A stretch of 64,000 nt of DNA from Stappia sp. TSB10P1A. GTDB lineage: Bacteria > Pseudomonadota > Alphaproteobacteria > Rhizobiales > Stappiaceae. The stretch is from positions 186,001-250,000 of the forward strand of contig NZ_FYAU01000036.1 in the NCBI RefSeq assembly GCF_900185725.1, in the 5' to 3' direction. Below the pieces are notes generated by a model. It had not been told where the DNA came from and ran no database searches. It worked only from the letters and a program-made list of their open reading frames with translations. Both the position numbers and the translations under genes were made by a program. Shown here one piece after another: positions 25,444 through 54,056 of the stretch (position 1 is its first letter; every line of letters begins with the position of its first letter).

Positions 25444-28431
25444 ATGCGGGGCACAGAAGCTGTGACGGTCACGGCAGGCAGGCGGAAGCCGGCGACATTC
25501 CGCGCATCCCTTACTACCGCGATGCCATCGGGCAGCCGTAGCGCGCAGGCCATTCATGCCGCCCTCGGGGCTGCGGGCCATCGGCTCGGCCAGTTCGCTT
25601 TCCTGGTCCTCACCCTGTGTTTCGCCCTTTGCGCCGGCACGACCGACGCCAACGCGCTCTCGGCCGACTGCGCGCGGATCAACAGCGAATGGAGTGCCGG
25701 AGTAACTTTCGACTCAGCCTCTCTCCCACCGGGCTACCATGATTTCTTCGATGAGTACAACCTGGCGGACGGCGAAACGCTGACCTGGTCGGTTACTGGC
25801 AGCGGCGTCCTAAACAGCCATACCTACGCCGCTTTCTTTGTCGGAAACGGAGGTGATTGGGTGCATTCCGAAAGTTCGGATCTCGTCGGCAGCTTCTCCG
25901 ACAGCGGCTCCCATACGTTTTCGCCCGGCAATACCTATGCTATCCTCCAGGCGCTCGTAAACAAGTCGTCCGACCCCGCTTATATAGATGATCCTGCCAC
26001 GGTGACGATGACGGCGAGCTGTTCGGAAGGTTCTCCGGTCACCATCACCCTGAACCCGGCCGCCGGCAGCCTCGCCAATGGCACGGTCGGCACCAGCTAC
26101 ACCGAGACCTTCACCGCCTCCGGCGGCGCTGCGCCCTACACCTATGCGGTCACCGCAGGCGCCCTGCCCGACGGCCTGACCCTCGCCTCCAACGGTGCCC
26201 TCACCGGAACCCCGACCACGGCGGAGACGGCGAACTTCACCGTCACCGCCACCGACGCCAACAGCGACACCGGCGATGCCGCCTATTCCATCCAGGTCGA
26301 TGCAGCCCCCGTCGTCATCGCGCTGAACCCGGCCGCCGGCAGCCTCGCCAATGGCACGGTCGGAACCAGCTACACCGAGACCTTCACCGCCTCCGGCGGC
26401 GCTGCGCCCTACACCTATGCGGTCACCGCAGGCGCCCTGCCCGACGGCCTGACCCTCGCCGCGAACGGTGCGCTCACCGGAACGCCGACCACGGCGGAGA
26501 CGGCGAACTTCACCGTCACCGCCACGGATGCCAACTCCGCCACCGGCGCGGCCGCCTATTCCATCCAGGTCGATGCAGCCCCCGTCGTCATCGCGCTGAA
26601 CCCGGCCGCCGGCAGCCTCGCCAATGGCACGGTCGGAACCAGCTACACCGAGACCTTCACCGCCTCCGGCGGCGCTGCGCCCTACACCTATGCGGTCACC
26701 GCAGGCGCCCTGCCCGACGGCCTGACCCTCGCCTCCAACGGCGCCCTCACCGGAACCCCGACCACGGCGGAGACGGCGAGCTTCACCGTCACCGCCACGG
26801 ACGCCAATTCCGACACGGGCGAGGCCGCCTATTCGCTGCAGATCGATGCCGCCCCGGTCACCATCACCCTGGACCCGGCGGCAGGCGCCCTGCCTCAGGC
26901 AATGGCCGGCGAAGACTACACCGCCGCGATCACAGCCAGCGGCGGCACCGGCCCCTATCTCTACAGCGTGATCGCGGGGTCCCTGCCCGGCGGCCTGGTG
27001 CTGAATGTCTCGACCGGCGAGTTGAACGGCCCCCTCGATGTCGACACCGAAGGCAACTACAGTTTCACGATCCAGGCGAGCGATGCCAACAACGTCACGG
27101 GTTCGGCGGCCTATACGCTGGCCGTGACCGAACAGACGGTCGTGGTCACCGACAAGGAGGTGACCGTGCCGGCGGGGTCGACGCCGCCGAACGTCAATCT
27201 GGCGAGCGGTGCGACGGGCGGACCGTTCGAGTCCGCCGCCATCGTCGCCGTCGAACCGCCGACGGCCGGCACGGCGCAGATCGTCCATGGCGAGTTCGCC
27301 CAGGTCGGCCCCGGCCCGATCGGCTTCTACCTGAAGTTCACGCCCAATCCGACCTATTCCGGCCAGGTGACGATCCGCTTCACGCTGACCAGTTCGCTCG
27401 GCACGTCCAACGTTGGGACCGTGCTCTACACGCTCGGCTACAGTCCCGTCGCCGTCGCCAAGGAAATCCACAGTCTGGTTTACGGCTTCGTGCAGACACG
27501 GCAGAACCTGATCAGCACCATGATCAGGATACCGGGCCTGCGCGAGCGGCGGCAGATGCGGACGGCGCGGGAAGTCATCAGCATGCGCATGAAGCCCTCG
27601 TCGCACGGCATGACCCTGGGCTTTGCCACCAGCCTGGCACAGATGTCCGCGGCGAGCGATGCGATCGAGCGCAGCCTCGGTGTCGACACCTCGGTGTTCA
27701 ACGTCTGGGTCGACGGCTCGTTCGCCGTGCACAATCGCAAGCAGAACGACAACCGCTGGGGCACGTTCGCGCTGTTCTCGGCCGGCGCGGACTATCTGGT
27801 GACGGAGAATGCGCTCATCGGCTTCTCCTTCCACTATGACCGGATGAGCGATCCGACCCGCGACAATTCGAGGCTGAGCGGCGACGGCTGGCTTGTCGGC
27901 CCCTATGCCTCGTTCGAGCTCGGCCGCGGCGTCTTCTGGGACACCAGCCTGCTGTATGGCGGATCCTCCAACGACATCGACACCACCTTCTGGGACGGCC
28001 GCTTCAACACCCGCCGCTGGATGTTCGACACCGCCCTCTCCGGCCAGTGGTATCTCGACGAGACGACCACGCTGTCCCCGAAGCTGCGCGCCGTCTATCT
28101 GTCCGAGAAGGTGGACGACTACCGCGTCACAAACGCTGCCGGCGATATCGTCGGCCTGGATGGCTTCACGGTCGAGCAGTTGCGGGTCAGCCTTGGAGCC
28201 GAACTCGCCCGCCAATACGTTCTCGACGATGCGCTGGTGCTGACCCCGAGCGTCGCCCTTACCGGCGGCTATTCCAGCCTTGGCGGCTCGGGTCCCTTCG
28301 GTTCGGTCGGAGCCGGACTGACGCTCAGCAATGGCGGCCACTGGAGCCTCGACGCGGCGCTGCGCTTCAACATCGAGGGCGACGGCCAGTCCTCGGCCGG
28401 CGGCAGGGTGGGTGTCGCCGTCCGCTTCTGA
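25444..28431 (+). CDS. Autotransporter with Ig-like repeats and an outer membrane beta-barrel
   Basis: 995 residues. A long hydrophobic segment (about residues 48-70, QFAFLVLTLCFALCAG) acts as an export signal after a basic N extension. An N-terminal Cys-containing globular part follows, then four putative-Ig (He_PIG) modules of 91 residues (200-290, 291-381, 382-472, 473-563), a beta-rich linker, and a C-terminal translocator barrel from about residue 725 to the terminal Phe (VWVDGSFAVHNRK, LIGFSFHYDRM, GGRVGVAVRF). Probable adhesin or surface structure. The start is uncertain; an ATG at 25522 would also precede the signal. Confidence 0.85.
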   Translation: MRGTEAVTVTAGRRKPATFRASLTTAMPSGSRSAQAIHAALGAAGHRLGQFAFLVLTLCFALCAGTTDANALSADCARINSEWSAGVTFDSASLPPGYHDFFDEYNLADGETLTWSVTGSGVLNSHTYAAFFVGNGGDWVHSESSDLVGSFSDSGSHTFSPGNTYAILQALVNKSSDPAYIDDPATVTMTASCSEGSPVTITLNPAAGSLANGTVGTSYTETFTASGGAAPYTYAVTAGALPDGLTLASNGALTGTPTTAETANFTVTATDANSDTGDAAYSIQVDAAPVVIALNPAAGSLANGTVGTSYTETFTASGGAAPYTYAVTAGALPDGLTLAANGALTGTPTTAETANFTVTATDANSATGAAAYSIQVDAAPVVIALNPAAGSLANGTVGTSYTETFTASGGAAPYTYAVTAGALPDGLTLASNGALTGTPTTAETASFTVTATDANSDTGEAAYSLQIDAAPVTITLDPAAGALPQAMAGEDYTAAITASGGTGPYLYSVIAGSLPGGLVLNVSTGELNGPLDVDTEGNYSFTIQASDANNVTGSAAYTLAVTEQTVVVTDKEVTVPAGSTPPNVNLASGATGGPFESAAIVAVEPPTAGTAQIVHGEFAQVGPGPIGFYLKFTPNPTYSGQVTIRFTLTSSLGTSNVGTVLYTLGYSPVAVAKEIHSLVYGFVQTRQNLISTMIRIPGLRERRQMRTAREVISMRMKPSSHGMTLGFATSLAQMSAASDAIERSLGVDTSVFNVWVDGSFAVHNRKQNDNRWGTFALFSAGADYLVTENALIGFSFHYDRMSDPTRDNSRLSGDGWLVGPYASFELGRGVFWDTSLLYGGSSNDIDTTFWDGRFNTRRWMFDTALSGQWYLDETTTLSPKLRAVYLSEKVDDYRVTNAAGDIVGLDGFTVEQLRVSLGAELARQYVLDDALVLTPSVALTGGYSSLGGSGPFGSVGAGLTLSNGGHWSLDAALRFNIEGDGQSSAGGRVGVAVRF
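26041..27132 (+). repeat. Tandem 273-bp coding repeats, four units
   Basis: Units begin at about 26041, 26314, 26587 and 26860 (spacing measured from the CTGAAC/CTGGAC motif: 26050, 26323, 26596, 26869). Each is 273 bp and encodes one 91-residue Ig-like module. The first three are nearly identical at the DNA level and differ by a few substitutions; the fourth is clearly diverged. This suggests recent expansion or recombination within the autotransporter gene. Confidence 0.92.
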
Positions 28432-44627: not shown

Positions 44628-45445
44628 GCATGGCTGCGACCCCTACTTTGGAGATCGAGGCGCTGAACGTCAGCCTAAGCGGCACGCCGATCGTGCGCGA
44701 TGTCTCCTTCGCCGCGAAGGCCGGCGCCGTGACGGTGATCGTCGGGCCGAACGGCTCGGGCAAGAGCACGATGCTGAAGGCGGTGACCGGCGAATTGCGC
44801 CACACCGGCCGGGTGCGGCTCAACGGGACCAAGGTCGACGGCCTGCCGCCGGAGGCGCTGGCCGGCTTGCGCGCGGTGCTGCCGCAGCACACCAGCCTGA
44901 CCTTTCCGCTCACCGTCGCCGAAGTGGTGCGGCTCGGCATCCGCCGCGGCGCGCTGCCCTCCGCCTCCCCCCATCGGCGGATCTGCGAGGCGCTGGAGCG
45001 GGTCGATCTCGACGGCTTCGCGGCGCGCGCCTATCACTCGCTGTCGGGCGGCGAGCAGCAGCGGGTGCAGCTTGCCCGGGTGCTGTGCCAGGTCTGGGAC
45101 CCCTGCCCCGGCGGCGTGCCGCGCTGGCTGTTCCTCGACGAGCCGATCTCCAGCCTCGACATCCGCCACCAGATCCTGATCATGGATGTCGCCGCCGACT
45201 ATGCGCGCGCCGGCGGCGGCGTCGTCGCGGTGCTGCACGACCTCAACCTGACGGCGCTCTATGCCGACCATATCCTGGTGATGAAGACCGGCCGGCTGCT
45301 GTCGCAGGGCACGCCGAAAGAGGTCATTACCGACCGGCTGGTGTCGGAGGCGTTTGACCATCCGTTGCGGGTGTCGGCGGTGCCGGCGGGCGAGGTTCCC
45401 TTCATCCTGCCGCAGGCGGCGGGACCGGTCGCGGCGGTGCGCTGA
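44624..45445 (+). CDS. hmuV: HmuV, haem ABC transporter ATPase
   Basis: 273 residues. Walker A GPNGSGKST at 41-49, the signature LSGGEQQRVQLARVL, Walker B WLFLDEPISSLD, and VLHDLNLTA. The acidic insertion CQVWDPCPGGVPRW before Walker B is typical of HmuV. Its stop is 19 bases before a cluster of tandem stem-loops, and it converges on zur. Confidence 0.92.
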   Translation: MSMAATPTLEIEALNVSLSGTPIVRDVSFAAKAGAVTVIVGPNGSGKSTMLKAVTGELRHTGRVRLNGTKVDGLPPEALAGLRAVLPQHTSLTFPLTVAEVVRLGIRRGALPSASPHRRICEALERVDLDGFAARAYHSLSGGEQQRVQLARVLCQVWDPCPGGVPRWLFLDEPISSLDIRHQILIMDVAADYARAGGGVVAVLHDLNLTALYADHILVMKTGRLLSQGTPKEVITDRLVSEAFDHPLRVSAVPAGEVPFILPQAAGPVAAVR

Positions 45446-45464
45446 AAATTTGTCGCCCTTTCAG

Positions 45465-45613
45465 GCCTGCCTTAGGCAACAGCCTGGCAGTCTTAGCCTG
45501 CCTCAGGCAACAGCCTGGCAGTCCTGCCTGCCTCAGGCAACAGCCTGACAGTCTTGCCTGCCTTAGGCAACAGCCTGGCATTCTTAGCCTGCCTTAGGCA
45601 ACAGCCTGGCAGG
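45465..45613. repeat. Five tandem 30-31-bp stem-loop repeats between hmuV and zur
   Basis: AGGCAACAGCCT cores (hairpins with AGGC/GCCT stems and a 4-base loop) occur at 45474, 45505, 45535, 45565 and 45596, spaced 31, 30, 30 and 31 bases. Flanking bases (GCCTGCC before, GGCAGTCT after) are also repeated. The copy nearest zur includes its last codons (CQAVA) and stop, so the array appears to have grown by duplicating the 3' end of zur. It lies between the convergent stops of hmuV and zur and may act as a bidirectional transcription end or mRNA protector. Confidence 0.85.
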
Positions 45614-46040
45614 TGGCACAGGTGCCGCGCAGTTCCACCGTCGACTTGCGCACAGCAAAGCCGACCTTGGCGGCAAGGTCGCGCAGATGGTGGGAGAACT
45701 CGCTGTCGTTGAGTTCGGTCACCTGGCCGCAGGTCTCGCAGATGGCGAAGGCGGCGGTCTCGTGGCCGTCGCAGTCGGGATGGCGGCAGGCGACGAAGGC
45801 GTTGAGGCTTTCCAGCCGGTGCACGGCGCCCATTTCCACCAGCTTGTCGAGCGCGCGATAGACCTGCGGCGGGGCGCGGAAGCCGTCGTCGCGCAACTGG
45901 TCGAGGATGGTATAGGCGCTGAGCGGCGCCTTGGCCCGCTCCAGCGCCGACAGGACCAGGCTCTGGTTGCGGGTGAGGCCGGCAGGGCCATGCCCATGCC
46001 CGTGAGTGTGGCCGTGGCCGGACGAGGTGTCTCCGCTCAT
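45594..46040 (-). CDS. zur: Zur, zinc-responsive Fur-family repressor
   Basis: 148 residues. A His-rich N terminus (SGHGHTHGHGHG) precedes a Fur winged helix (LVLSALERAKAPLSAYTILDQL, PPQVYRALDKLVEMGAVHRL), then the zinc-site sequences CRHPDCDGHETAAFAICETCGQVTEL and a final CATC. Two CxxC pairs are likely the structural zinc site. Assigned to Zur rather than Fur because it closes the znuCB operon and two Zur-type palindromes flank that operon's promoter. Its 3' end lies in the stem-loop array. Confidence 0.9.
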   Translation of the reverse strand: MSGDTSSGHGHTHGHGHGPAGLTRNQSLVLSALERAKAPLSAYTILDQLRDDGFRAPPQVYRALDKLVEMGAVHRLESLNAFVACRHPDCDGHETAAFAICETCGQVTELNDSEFSHHLRDLAAKVGFAVRKSTVELRGTCATCQAVA

Positions 46041-46882
46041 TGACTGCTACTCCCAGGGCGCGCGCGCCGTGCGCCGGCGCCGAACAGTTTCGGCAGCTTT
46101 TCCGCGAAAGGCGACAGGCTGGCGAGAAACAGCACCAGCGCCGCCACCACGATCGACGGTCCCGACGGCGTATCCCACTCCAGCGAGGCGAACAAGCCGC
46201 CGACGACGGCGACGGCGCCGACAAGCGCGGCGATCACCGCCATCTGCTCCGGGCCGGACGACAGGCGCCGGGCGGTCGCCGCCGGAATGATCAGCATGGC
46301 GGTGATCAGCAGCACCCCGACGATCTTCATCGAGATGGCGATGACGGTCGCCAGCAGGATCATGAAGATGAGGTTGGCCCGGTCGGGGCGCAAGCCCTCC
46401 GCCTCGGCAAGCTCGCGGCTGATCGTCGCCGCGAAGAGCGGCGTCCAGATCATGACCAGCACGGCGAGCACCGCCGCGCCGCCGACATAGACGGCGAGAA
46501 TGTCGAACCGCGACACGGCGAGGATGTCGCCGAACAGGAAGCCCATCAGGTCGATCCGCACCCAGCTCATGAAGGCGAGCGCGACGAGGCCAAGCGCCAG
46601 CGAGGAATGGGCGAGCAGGCCGAGCAGCGAGTCCGACGAGAGCGAGGCGCGGCGCTGCAAGAGCAGCAGCGCCAGCGACACCAGCACCGAAACAGTGAAG
46701 ACCGACAGCGTGATGTTGACCTGCATCAGGAAGGCGAGCGCGACGCCGAGGAGCGCGGCATGGGACAGCGTGTCGCCGAAATAGGCGAGCCGCCGCCAGA
46801 CGACGAAACAGCCGAGCGGCCCGGCGACCAGCGCCACCCCGACCCCGGCGACAAGGGCGCGGGTGAAGAAGTCGTCAAGCAT
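46037..46882 (-). CDS. znuB: ZnuB, zinc ABC transporter permease
   Basis: 281 residues with about eight membrane helices of the ABC-3 (ZnuB/TroCD) family: YFGDTLSHAALLGVALAFLM and the ALLLITAMLII-like segment VGVLLITAMLIIPAATARRLS. Works with ZnuA and ZnuC. Its stop overlaps the start of zur, and its start overlaps znuC by eight bases. Confidence 0.92.
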   Translation of the reverse strand: MLDDFFTRALVAGVGVALVAGPLGCFVVWRRLAYFGDTLSHAALLGVALAFLMQVNITLSVFTVSVLVSLALLLLQRRASLSSDSLLGLLAHSSLALGLVALAFMSWVRIDLMGFLFGDILAVSRFDILAVYVGGAAVLAVLVMIWTPLFAATISRELAEAEGLRPDRANLIFMILLATVIAISMKIVGVLLITAMLIIPAATARRLSSGPEQMAVIAALVGAVAVVGGLFASLEWDTPSGPSIVVAALVLFLASLSPFAEKLPKLFGAGARRARPGSSSQ

Positions 46883-47795
46883 GGCGTCCTCCGGTCGCGG
46901 GCGAGGCATCGCCCCCCGCCGCATGGTCATGGCCGTGATGGTCATGGCCGTGATCGGGGTGATCGTGGTCGTGGTGGTGGTGGCCGTCGTCCGGGTGGCA
47001 ATGTGTGGTGATGCTGCCGTCGGCATGCAGCACCCGCCCGTCCGCCAGATGGGTGTGGTCGTGATGGTGTTCGTAGACGGCGAGCGTCGCGTCGGCGCGG
47101 GCGCCGAAAAGCTGGCGATAGGCTTCGCTGGAGGCGACCGCCGTCGGCGCGCCCTGGCAGCAGACATGGCCGTTGAGACAGACGACATGGTCGGTCGCCG
47201 CCATCACCACATGCAGATCATGCGAGATCAAGAGGATGCCGCAGCCGATATCGTCGCGGATGCGGCGGATCAGGTCGTAGAGCGCGACCTCGCCGGAAAA
47301 GTCGACGCCCTGCACCGGCTCGTCGAGCACCAGGAGGTCGGGCTTGCGGGCCATGGCGCGGGACAGCAGCGCGCGCTGGAACTCGCCGCCGGAAAGATTG
47401 CGCATCTCGGCCTGGCGCAGATGCGCAATGCCGGTCGCCTCCAGCACGCGGTCGGTCTCGCGCGAGGAAATGCGGCCGGTGAGCGACAGGAAACGCTCGA
47501 CGGAAAGCGGCAGCGTCCAGTCGATGCTGAGCTTCTGCGGCACATAGCCGACGACGAGGCCGGGGCAGCGCTCGGCCCGCCCCTCGCTCGGGGCAACGAT
47601 GCCGAGCGCGGTCTTGGCGGTGGTCGACTTGCCCGAGCCGTTCGGCCCGATCAGGGTGACGATCTCGCCCCGGCGTACGGCAAGATCGACGCCGCGCACC
47701 AGCCATCGCCCGTCGCGAAACACGCCGGCGCCGGTCAGCCGCACGAGGTCCTCGCCGGTTCGGCGGCCGGCGGTTGCGGAAGGGGTCATCAACAT
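46875..47795 (-). CDS. znuC: ZnuC, zinc ABC transporter ATPase with His-rich tail
   Basis: 306 residues. Walker A GPNGSGKST, signature NLSGGEFQRALLSRAM, Walker B LLVLDEPVQGVD, and ILLISHDLHVVM. The last 70 or so residues are extremely His-rich (HHHDHTH, HHHHDHDHPDHGHDHHGHDH), as seen in some alphaproteobacterial ZnuC proteins, and probably sense or buffer zinc. The ATG at 47795 is one of two closely spaced starts (47789 also possible). Diverges from znuA across a 179-base promoter with two Zur boxes. Confidence 0.92.
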   Translation of the reverse strand: MLMTPSATAGRRTGEDLVRLTGAGVFRDGRWLVRGVDLAVRRGEIVTLIGPNGSGKSTTAKTALGIVAPSEGRAERCPGLVVGYVPQKLSIDWTLPLSVERFLSLTGRISSRETDRVLEATGIAHLRQAEMRNLSGGEFQRALLSRAMARKPDLLVLDEPVQGVDFSGEVALYDLIRRIRDDIGCGILLISHDLHVVMAATDHVVCLNGHVCCQGAPTAVASSEAYRQLFGARADATLAVYEHHHDHTHLADGRVLHADGSITTHCHPDDGHHHHDHDHPDHGHDHHGHDHAAGGDASPATGGRHA

Positions 47796-47914
47796 GAGGC
47801 GGGATCCTGGGTCACCCGGCCATCCTCCAACGGCGCCGCTGCGCCGGCAAGTCCCGCTCGCCTCGCGGCGCGGGACATTTTTCAACAGGGGGCTTGCGAG
47901 CCTGTATCCCACAC

Positions 47915-47948
47915 GTTATAGCATAACACAACCCCGTGATCTTATAAC
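47915..47948. promoter_or_regulatory. Two tandem Zur boxes in the znuCB-zur/znuA promoter
   Basis: Box one, 47915-47927, is GTTAT-AGC-ATAAC with perfect 5-bp arms. Box two, 47936-47948, is GTGAT-CTT-ATAAC with one mismatch. The two centres are 21 bp apart, two helical turns, so two Zur dimers could bind the same face. They lie 27 bases or more before znuA and 120 bases before znuC. Confidence 0.7.
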
Positions 47949-47974
47949 ATGCCAGCCTGAAACGGAGACTGTCC

Positions 47975-49087
47975 ATGACGCTTGCCCAACGACTGCTGCT
48001 GTCCGCCTCGCTGCTCGTCGCGACGACCGCCGCAGGGCATGCCGCTCCGAAGGTGGTGGCCTCGATCAAGCCCGTGCATTCGCTGGTGGCAGCGGTGATG
48101 CAGGGCGTGGGCGAGCCCGCCCTGATCGTCGAAGGCGCCGGCTCGCCGCATACCTACAGCCTGAAGCCGTCGCAGGCCAAGGCCCTGCAGGAGGCCGACC
48201 TGATCTTCTGGATCGGCCACGAGCTGGAGGCCTTCCTGGAAAAGCCGGTGGAGACCATCGGCGCCAATGCCAAGGCGGTCGAGCTGATCGACGCGCATGG
48301 GCTGATCAAGCTGCCGTTCCGCGAGGGCGGCCCGTTCGAGGCGCATGACCACGGCGAGGACGAGGGGCACGCCGACGCCGGACACGATCATGCCCACGAT
48401 CATGCCAAAGAGCACGCCAAGGACGATCACAAGCACGACCATGCCCACGATCACAAGCATGATCACAAGCATGACCACGCGCATACGCATGACCACGGCC
48501 ACAAGCACGAGACGGCGAAGGCCGCCGGTCATGACCATGCGCACGACCATGGTCATGCGCATGGCGCCTTCGACGCCCATGTCTGGCTCGACCCGGAAAA
48601 CGCCAAGGCCATGGTGAACGAGATCGCCGAGGCGCTGGCCGAGGCCGACCCGGACAATGCCGCGACCTACGAGGCCAATGCCGCCAGCACCATCGCGCGG
48701 CTGGAGGCGCTGCACGCCGACATCGACGCGCGGCTGGCGCCGGTGCGCGGCAAGGGCTTCATCGTGTTCCACGACGCCTACCAGTATTTCGAGAAGCGCT
48801 TCGACATCTCCGCCTCCGGCTCGATCACCGTCAGCCCGGAGGTGATGCCGGGGGCGGAGCGGATCACCGAGATCAAGGGCCGGATCGCCGAGCTCGGCGC
48901 GACCTGCGTGTTTTCCGAGCCGCAGTTCGAGCCGAAACTGATCCAGGTGGTGACCGAGGGCACGCCGGCCCGCGCAGGCGTGCTCGATCCGCTCGGCGCC
49001 GGCCTTGCCGATGGCCCGGACCTCTATTTCGGGCTGATCGACGGCCTCGCCACTTCGATTCAGGAGTGCCTCGGCGGCGCGAGCTGA
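47975..49087 (+). CDS. znuA: ZnuA, zinc-binding ABC protein with long His loop
   Basis: 370 residues. Signal peptide (QRLLLSASLLVATTAAGHAA) and a cluster A-I metal-binding fold with likely zinc ligands His59 (GSPHTYSL), His202 (AHVWLDP) and His267 (FIVFHDAYQYF). Between the first two, residues 124-196 form a charged loop with over 30 His (HDHAHDH, HKHDHKHDHAHTHDHGH), the ZnuA-type zinc-capturing loop. Divergent from znuCB-zur and under the tandem Zur boxes. Confidence 0.94.
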   Translation: MTLAQRLLLSASLLVATTAAGHAAPKVVASIKPVHSLVAAVMQGVGEPALIVEGAGSPHTYSLKPSQAKALQEADLIFWIGHELEAFLEKPVETIGANAKAVELIDAHGLIKLPFREGGPFEAHDHGEDEGHADAGHDHAHDHAKEHAKDDHKHDHAHDHKHDHKHDHAHTHDHGHKHETAKAAGHDHAHDHGHAHGAFDAHVWLDPENAKAMVNEIAEALAEADPDNAATYEANAASTIARLEALHADIDARLAPVRGKGFIVFHDAYQYFEKRFDISASGSITVSPEVMPGAERITEIKGRIAELGATCVFSEPQFEPKLIQVVTEGTPARAGVLDPLGAGLADGPDLYFGLIDGLATSIQECLGGAS

Positions 49088-49104
49088 GGCTTTCCCCTCC
49101 CCCC

Positions 49105-50299
49105 GAGGGGATGGGAGGCCGTGCCACTCTCTCGGGGCGTCGTCCCGGTCAAGCGGCAGCGCAGAGCCGGGAGCCATTGGCAGCCTCGGCGGGTGTGAGG
49201 CGGAGAGCGTTGGCGGAATTGCTCCTGCGCTTCAGCCCCTCCCGTGTCATCCCGGACGAGGCCGAAGGCCGATGATCCGGGATCGGGGAGGCAGAAGCGG
49301 GTGTGGCGTCGTTCGGGAGCGTGGCCGAAAGGCCCTCGGCTCTCCGATCCCGCATCTCCGCTTCGCTGCGTGCGGGATGACGAAGGGAGGGGCTTGCGTG
49401 CGGGGGACCAGAGGACGGGGCGGTGCAAGGGACGCGACCGCTCTGGCAACCAATAGGCCCCGGGTCGCGCTCCGCTTGCCCGGGGTGACGGCCGAGGGGA
49501 TGGGAGGTCGTGCCGCTCTCTCGGACGTCATCCCGGCCGCAGGCGAAGCCGAAGAGCCGGGAGCCATTGGCACCCTCGGCGGGTGTGAGGCGGAGAGCGT
49601 TGGCGGAATTGCTCCTGCGCTTCAGCCCCTCCCGCGTCATCCCGGACGAGGCCGAAGGCCGACGATCCGGGATCGGGGAGGCAGAAGCGGGTGTGGCGCC
49701 GTTCGGGAGTGCCTTCGTGAGGCCCTCGGCTCTCCGATCCCGCATCTCCGCTTCGCTGCGTGCGGGATGACGAAGGGAGGGGCTTGCGTGCGGGGGACCA
49801 GAGGAGAGCGCGGCGTCCGGAGGACGCGGGAGAGGTTCCGGTGTCCTCGCCGCCGCTCTGGGAGCCAATAGTCCCCGGGTCGCGGCTGCGCCTTGCCCGG
49901 TGTGACGGCCGAGAGGAGGCAAGGTCGTGCCTCCCACTCGGACGTCATCCCGGCCGCAGGCGAAGCCGAAGAGCCGGGAGCCATTGGCACCCTCGGCGGG
50001 TGTGAGGCGGAGAGCGTTGGCGGAATTGCTCCTGCGCTTCAGCCCCTCCCGCGTCATCCCGGACGAGGCCGAAGGCCGACGATCCGGGATCGGGGAGGCA
50101 GGCGGGTGTGGCGCCGTTCGGGAGTGCCTTCGTGAGGCCCTCGGCTCTCCGATCCCGCATCTCCGCTTCGCTGCGTGCGGGATGACGAAGGGAGGGGCTT
50201 GCGTGCGGGGGACCAGAGGACGGGGCGGTGCAAGGGACGCGACCGCTCTGGCAACCAATAGGCCCCGGGTCGCGCTTCGCTTCGTGCGGGGTGACGGCC
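49105..50299. repeat. Array of three tandem REP-like units (389, 417, 389 bp)
   Basis: Boundaries set by GAGGGGATGGGAGGTCGT-type sequence at 49105, 49494, 49911 and a last partial copy at 50300. Each unit holds several hairpins, such as the motif pairs GTCATCCCGG.../...CCGGGAT, GATCCCGCATC.../...GCGGGATGACG and CCCCGGGTCGCG.../...CGGGGTGACGG. Other repeated text includes GAGCCATTGG (49171, 49561, 49978). The middle unit has a diverged segment and 28 extra bases. It fills the gap between znuA and the Zur-box operon; 49088-50378 has no believable gene. Confidence 0.85.
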
Positions 50300-50351
50300 G
50301 AGAGGATGGGAGGTCGTTGCGGTTTAGGCCGCCTTTTTTTGGTACCACTAC

Positions 50352-50366
50352 TGTTATGTAATAACA
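50352..50366. promoter_or_regulatory. Zur box before the DUF4198-COG0523 operon
   Basis: TGTTAT-GTA-ATAACA is a perfect 6-bp palindrome with a 3-bp spacer, the same design as the znu boxes (GTTAT-N3-ATAAC). It lies 12 bases before the ATG at 50379, overlapping the probable ribosome site region (ACGAGG), which favours repression. It marks the two following genes as zinc-starvation genes. Confidence 0.75.
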
Positions 50367-50378
50367 TACGAGGACAAA

Positions 50379-51104
50379 ATGAAACGCACCCTTCTTGCAA
50401 CCGCCGCCCTGCTGCTGTTCGCCGGCAGCGCCGTCGACGCGGTGGCGCACGGCATCTGGATCGCCCAGCGTCACGGCGAGCTTGCCATCGTCTACGGTCA
50501 CGGCGCCTCCGACGAGGCCTACGACCCGGCCAAGATCACCGCCGTTGCCGCCCATGACGGCGAACAGGCGGTGCCGGTCACTCCGGTGAACCGGGAGACC
50601 CACGCCCTGGTGCCGATGCCCGAGCGGGCACCGGTCCTGATCGCGACGATGGACAACGGCTATTGGAGCCAGGGAGCGGACGGCAAATGGGTCAACAAGC
50701 CCAAGTCCGAGGTGCCCGGCGCCAAGCAGGCCTCGCGCTCGCTGAAGCACACGGTGGCGATCCTGCGCCACACCCATGACGCCGCCCTGCCCAAGGGGCT
50801 GAGGCTGGAGATCGTACCGGCCAAGGATCCGACGGAGCTGCATGCCGGCGATCCGCTGGAGGTGCTGGTGCTGCTGAACGGCGAACCGCTCGCCAATGCG
50901 CCGGTGACGGCGGAATACACCACCGACTCCGAGGCCGAGCCGGTGCGCACGGGCGCCGACGGCAAGGCCACCATCGTGGTGCGCAACAACGGGCTGAACG
51001 TCGTCGCCGTGTCCGCCATCGAGGCGCCCGACGAGCCGGAGAAGGCCGACAGGATCAGCCACTTCTCCACGCTCTCGTTCAACCTCGGCCACCACGAGCA
51101 CTGA
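50379..51104 (+). CDS. Exported DUF4198 protein, probable metal-binding periplasmic component
   Basis: 241 residues. Signal peptide ([19 protein letters not shown]) with cleavage likely before His, so the mature chain would begin [19 protein letters not shown], with several His and an N-terminal His suited to metal binding. A beta-sandwich DUF4198 domain follows, and a His-rich end (GHHEH). DUF4198 proteins accompany nickel/cobalt/zinc transporters. It sits between a Zur box and a COG0523 GTPase gene, so a zinc role is inferred. The exact function is not known. Confidence 0.75.
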
Positions 51105-51178
51105 CCGGGCCCGACCGACACGCCATTGCGGGCCGGCGCCCCCTGCCGGCCCGCGACCAGCCAGGAGCTTCTTTCACG

Positions 51179-52384
51179 ATGGACAATCGCCTCCCCGTTA
51201 CCGTGCTGTCCGGCTTTCTGGGCGCCGGCAAGACCACCCTGCTCAACCACATTCTCAACAACCGTGAGGGATTGCGGGTCGCCGTCATCGTCAACGACAT
51301 GAGTGAGGTGAATATCGACGCCAGCCTGGTGCGCGAGGGCGGCGGCAACGTCTCGCGCACCCAGGAGCGGCTGGTCGAGATGACCAATGGCTGCATCTGC
51401 TGCACGCTGCGCGAGGACCTGTTGCGCGAGGTCAAGACGCTGGCCGGCGAAGGCCGCTTCGACCATCTGGTGATCGAATCCACCGGCATTGCCGAGCCGC
51501 TGCCGGTCGCCTCGACCTTCGAGTTCCGCGACGAGCATGGCGAGAGCCTGAGCGACGTGGCGCGGCTCGATTCGATGGTGACGGTGGTGGATGCGGCGAG
51601 CCTGCTGAAGGACTACGGCTCCACCGACTTCCTCACCGATCGCGGCGAATCGCTCGGCGAGGACGACGAGCGCACCCTGGTCGACCTGCTCGTCGACCAG
51701 ATCGAGTTCGCCGACACGATCATCCTCAACAAGGTGAGCGATGCCCGCCCGCAGGACCTTGCCGCCGCGCGCCAGATCGTGCGCGGGCTGAACCCGGACG
51801 CGGTGGTGATGGAGACCGACCGCTCCGCCGTTCCCTTGCGCGACGTGCTCGGCACCGGCCGTTTCGACTTCGACAAGGCGCATGAGCATCCGCTGTGGTT
51901 CAAGGAGCTGAACGGCTTCGCCGACCATGTGCCGGAAACGGAGGAATACGGCATCCGCTCCTTCGTCTACCGGGCGCGCCAGCCCTTCGCCCCGCGCGCG
52001 CTGAACCGCTTCGTGCAGAAGAGCTGGCCGGGGGTGATCCGCGCCAAGGGGTTCTTCTGGCTGGCGACCCGGCCGCATTTCGTCGGCGAGATCAGCCAGG
52101 CGGGCGCCTTCGTCACCACCGAAAAGCGCGGGCTGTGGTGGTCGGCGGTGCCGCGCAAGCACTGGCCGGAGTCGCCGGACTGGCGGCGGGCGATGGAGCC
52201 CTACATGCATCCGGTGTGGGGCGACCGGCGGCAGGAAATCGTCTTCATCGGCACGAGCGGCATGGATGAAGCGGCGATCCGCACGGAACTCGACGCGGCG
52301 CTGGTCGGGGCGGACGGCTTCCACCCGGAAGAGTGGACCGGGCTCGACGACCCCTTCCCCGCCTGGGGCAGCGCGGCGGCCTGA
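51179..52384 (+). CDS. COG0523 (CobW/ZigA-like) metal-chaperone GTPase
   Basis: 401 residues. Walker [10 protein letters not shown] at 12-20, the metal-binding GCICC (Cys72, Cys74, Cys75) in [11 protein letters not shown], Walker B-like [13 protein letters not shown], and [10 protein letters not shown]; a CobW C-terminal domain follows ([18 protein letters not shown]). The family delivers zinc, cobalt or other metals to proteins. Its position in a Zur-box operon supports a zinc chaperone similar to ZigA/YeiR. It is 75 bases after the DUF4198 gene and 82 bases before the cobalamin riboswitch. Confidence 0.88.
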
Positions 52385-52465
52385 ACCGGTACTGACCTAA
52401 ACCGGCGGCGACGGCCTTCGGCGATTGGCCTTGATGCGGTGCCCGTCATCTGCCAGTTTGGCGGC

Positions 52466-52683
52466 GATGGTTGCCGAAGGCCGAAGCGCCGGAGGCATGA
52501 AAAGGGAACACGGTGCGGCGTACCCATCAGGGGCCAAGACCGTGGCTGCCCCCGCAACTGTAAGCGGCCGGGGCCGACGTCCTTCAACGGGACGAATGGC
52601 CCAGGCCCTGCCGCACGATGCCACTGCCCGAAGCCGGGCGGGAAGGCGCGGCCGGGCCGGACCCGCGAGCCAGGAGACCTGCC
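52466..52683 (+). promoter_or_regulatory. Cobalamin (B12) riboswitch
   Basis: Conserved elements in order: AAAGGGAACACGGTGCGG (52500-52518), GCTGCCCCCGCAACTGTAAG (52545-52564), GCCACTGCCC (52619-52628), GGGAAGGCG, and the B12 box AGCCAGGAGACCTGCC (52668-52683). These match the class of adenosylcobalamin-binding leaders. It stands 46 bases before the DUF1636 ATG, and normally lowers expression when B12 is plentiful. Control may be at the level of transcription or translation; a terminator is not obvious. Confidence 0.92.
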
Positions 52684-52728
52684 ATCTCCCGCAACGACAA
52701 CCGGACGGGGTGTTCCGGGAAGGTAGCC

Positions 52729-53178
52729 ATGACACGCAACGAATCCCTCTTCGGCCCATCGGCGGCCCTTACCCGCAGCCCGCCGCGCCGGCACCGCATC
52801 ACCGTGTGCACCACCTGCCGCGACCCGGAAACGCGGAAGCAGCCGGGCCTTCACCTGATCGAGACCTTGAGCGCCGCGCTCGCCGGGGACGGCGCCGCGC
52901 CGTTCGAGGTGGCGGGCGCCGCCTGCATGGCCGGCTGCTCGCACCCCTGCACGGTCGCCTATCAGGCCGAGGGCAAGGCGAGCTATCTCTTCGGCGACAT
53001 CGAGCCGGCGCGCGACGTGGCAACGCTCCTCGCCTTCGCCCGGCAATATGCCGAGCTCGACGACGGCTGGTGCTCGTCGCTGCAGCGGCCCGAGGGGCTG
53101 AAGGGCAAGACACTGGCGCGGATGCCCGCCCTGCCCGCTCCCACCCTCGGGGCAGCGGACCGGAGGGACGGCGCATGA
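52729..53178 (+). CDS. DUF1636 Cys-rich protein under the B12 riboswitch
   Basis: 149 residues. Cys pattern: ITVCTTCRD near the start, ACMAGCSHPC in the middle and GWCSSLQ later, consistent with an Fe-S or thioredoxin-like ferredoxin-type domain that could bind a metal. Function is not assigned. Its place at the front of a riboswitch-controlled ABC transporter operon suggests a role in cobalt/cobinamide or B12 handling. It overlaps the ATPase by four bases. Confidence 0.78.
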   Translation: MTRNESLFGPSAALTRSPPRRHRITVCTTCRDPETRKQPGLHLIETLSAALAGDGAAPFEVAGAACMAGCSHPCTVAYQAEGKASYLFGDIEPARDVATLLAFARQYAELDDGWCSSLQRPEGLKGKTLARMPALPAPTLGAADRRDGA

Positions 53179-54056
53179 GCCATCGCAGCGGAACCCCGGT
53201 GGTGCTGGAGCTGCGAAAGGTCGGCTACCGGCCGCGCGGCGCGGATGCGCTCCTTTCCGACCTCTCGCTGCATGTGCATGACGGCGAGATCCTCGTCCTT
53301 GCCGGGCCGAACGGTGCCGGCAAGTCGACCTTGATCCGGCTGATCGCCGGGCTGAGCGAGCCGACCGGCGGCGAGATGCGGCTCGGCGGCCGGCCGTATC
53401 GCGACGTGCCGATCACCGAGCGCGCCCGCGTCATCGCCTATGTCGGCCAGAGCGAGGAAAGCTGCGACCGGCTGACCGTCTCGCAATATGTCTCGCTCGG
53501 CCACCTGCCGCATCACCGCGCCGGCGGCCGCGAGGCCGGTGCCCGCGCGACCGACGAGGCGCTGGCGCTCGCCGACCTGACGCGGCTTTCCGGCCGGCGG
53601 ATGGGCGAGATTTCCGGCGGCGAACGCCAGCGGGCGAAGATCGCCCGCGCCGTCTGCCAGCGACCGCGCCTGCTGGTGCTGGACGAGCCGACCAACCATC
53701 TCGATCCGCTGGCGCGCGGCGAATTGCTCAGCCTCGTCTCCGGCCTCGGCATCGCGGTGGTGGCGGCGCTGCACGACCTGACGCTGATCGAGGCCTTCGC
53801 CAGCCATGTGGCGCTGATCCAGGGCGGGCAGCTCGTCGCGCATGGCCATCCGGTCGAGGTGCTGTCGAGCGAACGGGTGCGCGCGGTGTTCAGCGTCGAC
53901 CTCTACCGGATGCCGCATCCGGTGGAGGCGCGCCAGATCAGCGTGCTGGACATCCCCATCGAGGGGCGGTTCGGCGCGGCCACCTTGCCGGGCGACACAG
54001 CCGGTCCGGCCGCATCCAGCGCTCCGCATCTGCGGGCGGTGGCAACGCGCGGCTGA
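53175..54056 (+). CDS. B12/iron-type ABC transporter ATPase
   Basis: 293 residues, BtuD/FecE-like. Walker A GPNGAGKST, signature ISGGERQRAKIARAV, Walker B LLVLDEPTNHLD, and VAALHDLTLI. The last 60 residues are a low-complexity tail. The B12 riboswitch ahead of the operon makes cobalamin or a precursor the likely substrate, rather than a ferric siderophore. The start codon is inside the DUF1636 stop. Confidence 0.88.
   Translation: MSHRSGTPVVLELRKVGYRPRGADALLSDLSLHVHDGEILVLAGPNGAGKSTLIRLIAGLSEPTGGEMRLGGRPYRDVPITERARVIAYVGQSEESCDRLTVSQYVSLGHLPHHRAGGREAGARATDEALALADLTRLSGRRMGEISGGERQRAKIARAVCQRPRLLVLDEPTNHLDPLARGELLSLVSGLGIAVVAALHDLTLIEAFASHVALIQGGQLVAHGHPVEVLSSERVRAVFSVDLYRMPHPVEARQISVLDIPIEGRFGAATLPGDTAGPAASSAPHLRAVATRG

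Follow-up and report, generated by a model that had tools for sequence, protein, structure and literature searches.

A tandem array of REP-type palindromes downstream of znuA in Stappia sp. TSB10P1A and the dispersed repeat family to which it belongs

The REPs of E. coli come in two classes and form tandem runs in the so-called BIMEs (bacterial interspersed mosaic elements), with a hairpin and a tag that differ from those of the Stappia repeats. Rhizobia contain the RIMEs (Rhizobium-specific intergenic mosaic elements), reportedly presented by Osteras and colleagues in 1995, which are said to be mosaic palindromic intergenic repeats. According to the accessible part of PMC2817692, the REPs in BIMEs are regularly spaced and alternate in orientation, and the available text of PMC5082802 places Br-REP1 and Br-REP2 of Bradyrhizobium in 3' UTRs, where they are seen in cDNA reads. 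The CGTC REPs were defined by Di Nocera, De Gregorio and Rocco (2013; PMC3733652). As far as the available part of that paper describes them, these repeats have an unpaired CGTC, TGTC or CCTC end tag, a stem of 8-9 bp, a loop of 4-5 nt (with other loops in some species) and a tail that is mostly CCA. According to the same text, they are without a dedicated transposase, most are found in alphaproteobacteria, clusters and tail-tail dimers are rare, and head-tail dimers are negligible. A search of the open-licence literature found no paper on the repeats of the present lineage, on Stappia extragenic palindromes or on REPs with a RAYT in alphaproteobacteria.

The window, that is, the whole 64-kb stretch of Stappia sp. 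TSB10P1A DNA that was analysed, contains a gap of 1,291 bp (70% GC) between the stop of znuA at 49087 and the start of a DUF4198 gene at 50379. Three tandem units with spacings of 389, 417 and 389 bp take up this gap, together with a short partial fourth unit (Table 1). The initial annotation had described three such units of REP-like palindromes between znuA and a Zur box, and all of this is borne out by the repeat alignment, the hairpin model and the pattern search. Each unit is made up of four REP-type hairpins in the order outer>, inner>, inner<, outer< (O> I> I< O<), which gives a total of 12. A covariance model of the REPs, for which 113 hairpins were aligned, five of them taken from the znuA array, has 12 strong matches in the window, all inside the array (E 5e-18 to 3e-11), while the best match elsewhere in the window has an E of 0.016. 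Identities are 91.0% between units 1 and 2 (353/388 aligned positions), 91.7% between units 1 and 3 (354/386) and 93.8% between units 2 and 3 (365/389); TRF describes the array as a 417-bp period in 1.9 copies with 95% matches. The 389 nt from 49520 to 49908 have a folding energy of -231 kcal/mol, with a z of -4.7 relative to 100 shuffles, and Rfam returned only four matches for 45000-52000, with E 0.17-0.72 and all far under the gathering scores. The Zur-like pattern TGTTATNNNATAACA is matched exactly past the array and also occurs ahead of znuA, at 47914 (1 mismatch) and 47935 (2 mismatches); at up to 3 mismatches it has 7 matches in the window, compared to 1.3 expected. A minus-strand open frame of 650 aa (49149-51101), without a Pfam match, crosses the array antisense to the DUF4198 gene.

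Table 1. Features of the znuA–DUF4198 region, in positions of the window
Feature	Position	Strand	Basis
znuA, periplasmic zinc-binding protein, upstream of array	47975..49087	+	Pfam ZnuA PF01297, E 4e-68
Unit 1, 389 bp	49103..49491	+	repeat alignment
Unit 2, 417 bp; right part is the long form known from other sites	49492..49908	+	repeat alignment
Unit 3, 389 bp; left part unit 2-like, right part unit 1-like	49909..50297	+	repeat alignment
REP outer, unit 1, head GTCGTCCCGG	49137..49179	+	model R1, E 1.3e-11
REP inner, unit 1	49244..49289	+	REP model
REP inner, unit 1	49341..49383	-	REP model
REP outer, unit 1	49451..49491	-	REP model
REP outer, unit 2	49525..49569	+	REP model
REP inner, unit 2	49634..49679	+	REP model
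REP inner, unit 2	49731..49773	-	REP model
REP outer, unit 2	49866..49908	-	REP model
REP outer, unit 3	49942..49986	+	REP model
REP inner, unit 3	50051..50096	+	REP model
REP inner, unit 3	50146..50188	-	REP model
REP outer, unit 3	50256..50297	-	REP model
Intrinsic-terminator-like hairpin and T run, just past array	50319..50340	+	consensus scan; -7.0 kcal/mol
Zur-like box TGTTATGTAATAACA	50352..50366	+	exact match to typed pattern
DUF4198 protein gene, downstream neighbour	50379..51104	+	Pfam PF10670, E 1.5e-24
CobW-type GTPase gene	51179..52384	+	Pfam PF02492, E 1.2e-53

The hairpins can be divided into two classes according to their tail. Outer hairpins end in CCA (50/77), CTA (26/77) or, once, CAA (1/77), while the inner tail is CGG in 36 of 36, this tail being also the criterion for class assignment. 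The unpaired tag is CGTC in 72 of the 113 hairpins and TGTC in 9 (together 81), and the 32 that have GGTC all belong to the outer class. Without a further inner stem, which was left out of the model, the stem measures 7 bp in 68, 8 bp in 8 and 6 bp in 1 of the 77 outer hairpins, and 8 bp in 20, 7 bp in 13 and 6 bp in 3 of the 36 inner ones. The stem arms are separated by 14-19 nt in all 113, part of which may pair. The alignment (A1) comprises 113 of the 132 hairpins collected, all of which measure 30-36 nt between the head and the end of the arm; since this range was the selection window throughout, hairpins with shorter loops could have been missed. Columns 8-12 and 35-39 were required to be complementary by the selecting expression and are therefore not independent evidence of pairing. 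Columns 7 and 40 form U-A in 72 and C-G in 41 hairpins without exception, columns 13 and 34 are paired in 109 of 113, with four pair types, and pairing at both positions is lost when the partners are slid by 1 to 3 columns. Covariation at these pairs outside the selection argues that the stems are conserved as stems.

The initial annotation expected the hairpin motifs to recur elsewhere, and this is indeed so: GTCATCCCGG has 108 copies in the genome, compared to 5 for the same pattern read backwards, and the repeats form at least 58 other clusters. The REP model gives 380 matches at E<=0.001, its own 113 sequences included, in 60 own-genome sources, these being the window and 59 stretches around listed matches. 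A profile scan of the same 60 sources, covering 45001-54000 of the window, gives 383 matches in 59 clusters and no REP in 11 of the sources. Two of the clusters, L180 and L191, are each situated at the end of a contig and resemble each other, and they may therefore represent a single cluster that was counted double. These clusters were picked by sequence match among the matches listed, and 0 of the 59 lie wholly within a called gene. Several contigs (C24, C27, C38, C39, C43, C57 and C63) have ends in or close to REP repeats; the assembly was thus probably broken by repeats, and the copy numbers given here could be underestimates.

The clusters follow a grammar of which the znuA array is a regular product, and hardly a zinc-specific device. 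Complete O> I> I< O< units number 26, in 17 of the 59 clusters among the matches listed (shuffled mean 0.8, maximum 6); the other 42 clusters among these matches consist of partial or irregular runs. At least two complete units are joined in 5 of the 59 clusters among the matches listed, and at least three in 2 of 59, the znuA array and L160; no cluster among the matches listed is more regular than these two. Among the 324 neighbouring pairs of the matches listed, I<O< is the most frequent with 113, followed by I>I< with 74 and O<O> with 73; the median distances within these three pairs, among the same matches, are 109, 97 and 75 bp. With two I-O steps these medians sum to 390 bp, so that a period of about 390 bp is a rule of the family. 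The tidy 389-bp array had been regarded as unusual; this holds for the joining of units, which is restricted to the 5 clusters just mentioned, but not for the period, which is the family's usual spacing. In alternating and in being regularly spaced, the Stappia REPs are reminiscent of BIMEs, but the repeat cycle has four REPs, and RAYT transposases, searched for as Y1_Tnp (PF01797), which we take to be their Pfam family, are found in 0 of the 14 genomes of the genus.

The Stappia repeats also agree with the broad definition of REPs, being short palindromes (about 20-40 bp; the model has 43 positions), of high copy number and mostly intergenic. They are closest to the CGTC-tagged REPs, as a variant of which they are filed here, without being placed in any of CGTC-1 to CGTC-4, because the tag of most hairpins, the placement and the lack of a RAYT match, but loop length and clustering differ. 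Set against the description in the accessible part of PMC3733652, they share the CGTC or TGTC tag in 81 of the 113 hairpins, the short GC-rich stem, the high copy number, the location between unidirectional or convergent genes and the fact that no transposase of the RAYT kind (Y1_Tnp) was found. They differ in having 14-19 nt between the arms instead of 4-5, GGTC tags (32/113), an inner class with the tail CGG instead of CCA, and large clusters with 136 same-direction and 87 tail-tail neighbours among 324 pairs of the matches listed, a rough comparison since pairs were not counted by the dimer rule of PMC3733652. RIMEs are likewise mosaic palindromic intergenic repeats, a likeness by description only. 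The same applies to the Br-REPs as presented in the available text of PMC5082802, which are alphaproteobacterial 3'-UTR REPs, as those of the znuA array probably are.

At a threshold of E<=0.01, the model has matches in 28 of 31 genomes. All 14 genomes of the genus are among them, with between 11 and at least 150 matches per genome, scoring being capped at 150 candidates, and so are 5 of 5 further genomes of the family. When it was applied to 10 named genomes, 5 had matches, with 83 in a Roseibium MAG (znuA match 65%). Placement relative to genes, based on hexamer ORF scoring made in this analysis, could be scored for 50 clusters among the matches listed, 9 of the 59 being dropped at contig or stretch ends: 29 lie between unidirectional, 21 between convergent and 0 between divergent gene pairs. 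The 104 REP-free gene pairs of the same stretches comprise 62 unidirectional, 11 convergent and 31 divergent ones, and the difference in the divergent class (0/50 among the matches listed vs 31/104) has a Fisher p of 1.8e-6. For the 29 unidirectional clusters among the matches listed, the median distance between the upstream stop and the beginning of the cluster is 80 bp. According to the available part of PMC3733652, REPs of both tags show a placement like that of the Stappia clusters.

As to the origin of the array, identity between units of one cluster is 0.72-0.95 (13 pairs; clusters among the matches listed), compared to a median of 0.66 and a maximum of 0.79 between clusters among the matches listed (312 pairs); three of the 13 within-array pairs (0.715, 0.757 and 0.758) fall below this maximum. 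Units are thus mostly more alike within an array than elsewhere, which suggests that the unit has multiplied in place. The left side of unit 3 has 7 mismatches in 312 with unit 2 and its right side 4 in 76 with unit 1; being a mosaic of both, it indicates that units have exchanged sequence. What had been taken for a 28-base expansion of the middle unit is more readily explained if units 1 and 3 have a derived, shorter form, since the long segment of unit 2 has 23 matches in 14 of the 59 other own-genome stretches, among the matches listed, and the exact short form occurs in 0 of these 59. The long form is also present at the znuA loci of the congeners G002, G005 and G008. In G002, a single-contig assembly, a stretch (L206) has four > > < < cycles in a row, starting 426, 426, 776 and 422 bp apart, with 18 REP matches of which four are weak; these cycles were counted by orientation, without hairpin classes. 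Such arrays are therefore not only products of assembly.

A comparison of gap length in related strains, as had been proposed, shows a range from 122 to 1,291 bp, with 0 to 12 REPs, across six genomes. The gap 3' of znuA, as read from the sequences, measures 1,291 bp in TSB10P1A, 792 in G008, 597 in G002 and 421 in G005; the two shortest gaps are those of G003 (122) and G001 (about 200). It contains 12 REPs in TSB10P1A, 7 in G008, 3 in G002 and 1 in G005, and the gaps of G003 and G001 have 0 REP model matches, the sole match at the G003 locus (L114; 15.8 bits) falling inside znuA. The znuA loci of G007, G006 and G004 (L210, L215 and L216), where the downstream genes were not assigned, have no REP match; the search for znuA loci covered TSB10P1A and G001 to G008. 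The znuA stop is followed by REPs, a terminator-like hairpin, a Zur-like box (read by eye in the congeners) and the next gene, in this order, in TSB10P1A, G002, G005 and G008. The terminator scan of the gap in the window, with 1 site against 0.7 in shuffles, is alone no better than chance; the weight of the terminator-like hairpin comes from a similar hairpin at the corresponding place in the last three genomes. G003 has a hairpin, which folds at -17.4 kcal/mol, and a box without REPs, and the scan made no call in the G003 or G001 gap.

The gene past the box varies as well. CobW lies directly downstream of znuA in G002, G005 and G008 (L212, L208 and L209), and DUF4198 has no match in these three genomes. 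A DUF4198 gene is present in G003. Upstream of the DUF4198 gene of G004 (L116, 2434-2566) there is an oppositely oriented REP pair, with no znuA match there. The gaps of G005 and G002 contain another palindrome, read by eye, with a TGTC tag, an 8-bp stem ATACCTGC, the loop GAAG and the tail CCA; since this fits the description of CGTC-1 in the available part of PMC3733652, modules seem to be exchanged. With 12, 7, 3, 1, 0 and 0 hairpins at one locus, six genomes of the genus form a graded series that could be used to measure what REPs do to the tail of an mRNA and how a REP array grows where no RAYT is found.

Taken together, we consider the array, with a probability of roughly 0.8, to be a cluster in which dispersed palindromes of the REP type occupy the 3' flank of znuA, probably its 3' UTR, in which a four-hairpin unit of about 390 bp has multiplied in place, and which may shield the message but is not needed for zinc control. 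The unit would have multiplied through slippage or unequal recombination, and the exchange between units would have come afterwards. With less certainty, it could be imagined that the array is transcribed as the tail of the znuA mRNA, a chain of very stable hairpins, and that these slow 3'-to-5' exonucleases and so protect the message. A stabilization of znuA mRNA is thus possible, on the strength of the position of the hairpins and of E. coli work that, in the available text of PMC5082802, is cited for the slowing of 3'-to-5' decay by REP hairpins. Zinc regulation would not depend on the array, which may be nearly neutral.

That the array has a role specific to zinc is unlikely. The initial annotation considered that the array might insulate the two zinc transcription units and, indeed, it occupies nearly the whole of the gap from znuA to the Zur-like box. 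A dedicated insulator or regulator is nonetheless very improbable in view of such elements at no fewer than 58 other clusters, of REP-free znuA gaps in G003 and G001, and of the terminator-like hairpin that lies beyond the REPs in 4 of 4 genomes with REPs in this gap. Neutral selfish debris without any effect on mRNA is a reading that deserves to be taken seriously, though we do not favour it: the number of REPs in the znuA gap ranges from 12 to 0 among congeners and the same modules recur at many sites, but the stem pairs covary and divergent gaps are avoided. Both of the latter could also stem from the insertion process or from the purging of harmful insertions. That the assembler has repeated a single unit is hardly credible, since any two units have 24 to 35 differences at aligned positions, their lengths vary, and G002 has four cycles in a row, even if the assembly consists of 64 contigs, several of which stop in or near REP repeats. 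Least probable is a part of a protein-coding gene. Long open frames span the array, among them the minus-strand frame of 650 aa, but two frames tested are without a Pfam family, hexamer scoring gave no call, and, as the unit lengths of 389 and 417 differ by 28, the reading frame shifts between units; the lack of a Pfam match and the frame shift led to its rejection.

Y1_Tnp, the only transposase family searched, has no match in the 14 genus genomes, two of which are less than 90% complete; it was found in 14 of 87 family genomes and, in the same search, in 5 of 14 control genomes. Seven of nine fetched Y1_Tnp loci were scanned and contain no REP match. Not being found in TSB10P1A or the 13 congeners searched, Y1_Tnp was rejected as a driver. 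At a site on contig C39 (L178 2524-2785), TSB10P1A has a three-REP cluster in a gap of 516 bp, where the matching stretches of G002 and G008 (L223 and L224) have gaps of 174 and 172 bp and no REP match. At a second C39 site, G002 keeps 1 and G008 keeps 3 REP matches; by eye, the left hairpins differ between TSB10P1A and G002, and the right part is alike. Gains or losses of REPs have thus occurred among species that are about 91% identical in flanking genes. A miniature transposon, mobilized as an entire 390-bp unit by a transposase supplied in trans, would fit the dispersed copies, their nested inverted symmetry and the first C39 site, with its gap some 342-344 bp shorter in the relatives, and the restriction of the search to Y1_Tnp leaves room for another transposase. 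Such an element is doubtful, however, given that Y1_Tnp was found in none of the 14 genus genomes, the occurrence of a complete unit in just 17 of 59 clusters among the matches listed, and the within-array likeness that points to growth in place; nor was there a clear target duplication at the single filled/empty site aligned, the flanks of which are too diverged.

We would tentatively speculate that in this genus a lineage of CGTC-like REPs has built a four-hairpin composite, with interchangeable inner pairs, that spreads and multiplies without a RAYT, long hairpins being the substrate of a process driven by replication or recombination. If so, it would be a tractable system for the question, posed in the accessible part of PMC3733652, of how CGTC REPs propagate.

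Two further tandem repeats are present in the window. A 30-bp repeat in 4.8 copies (45465-45612) overlaps the last codons of a gene of the Fur family (45594-46040, minus strand), at its 3' end. A 273-bp repeat in 3.1 copies with 93% matches (26043-26886) lies within a protein of 995 aa that combines an autotransporter beta-domain with putative Ig domains (He_PIG).
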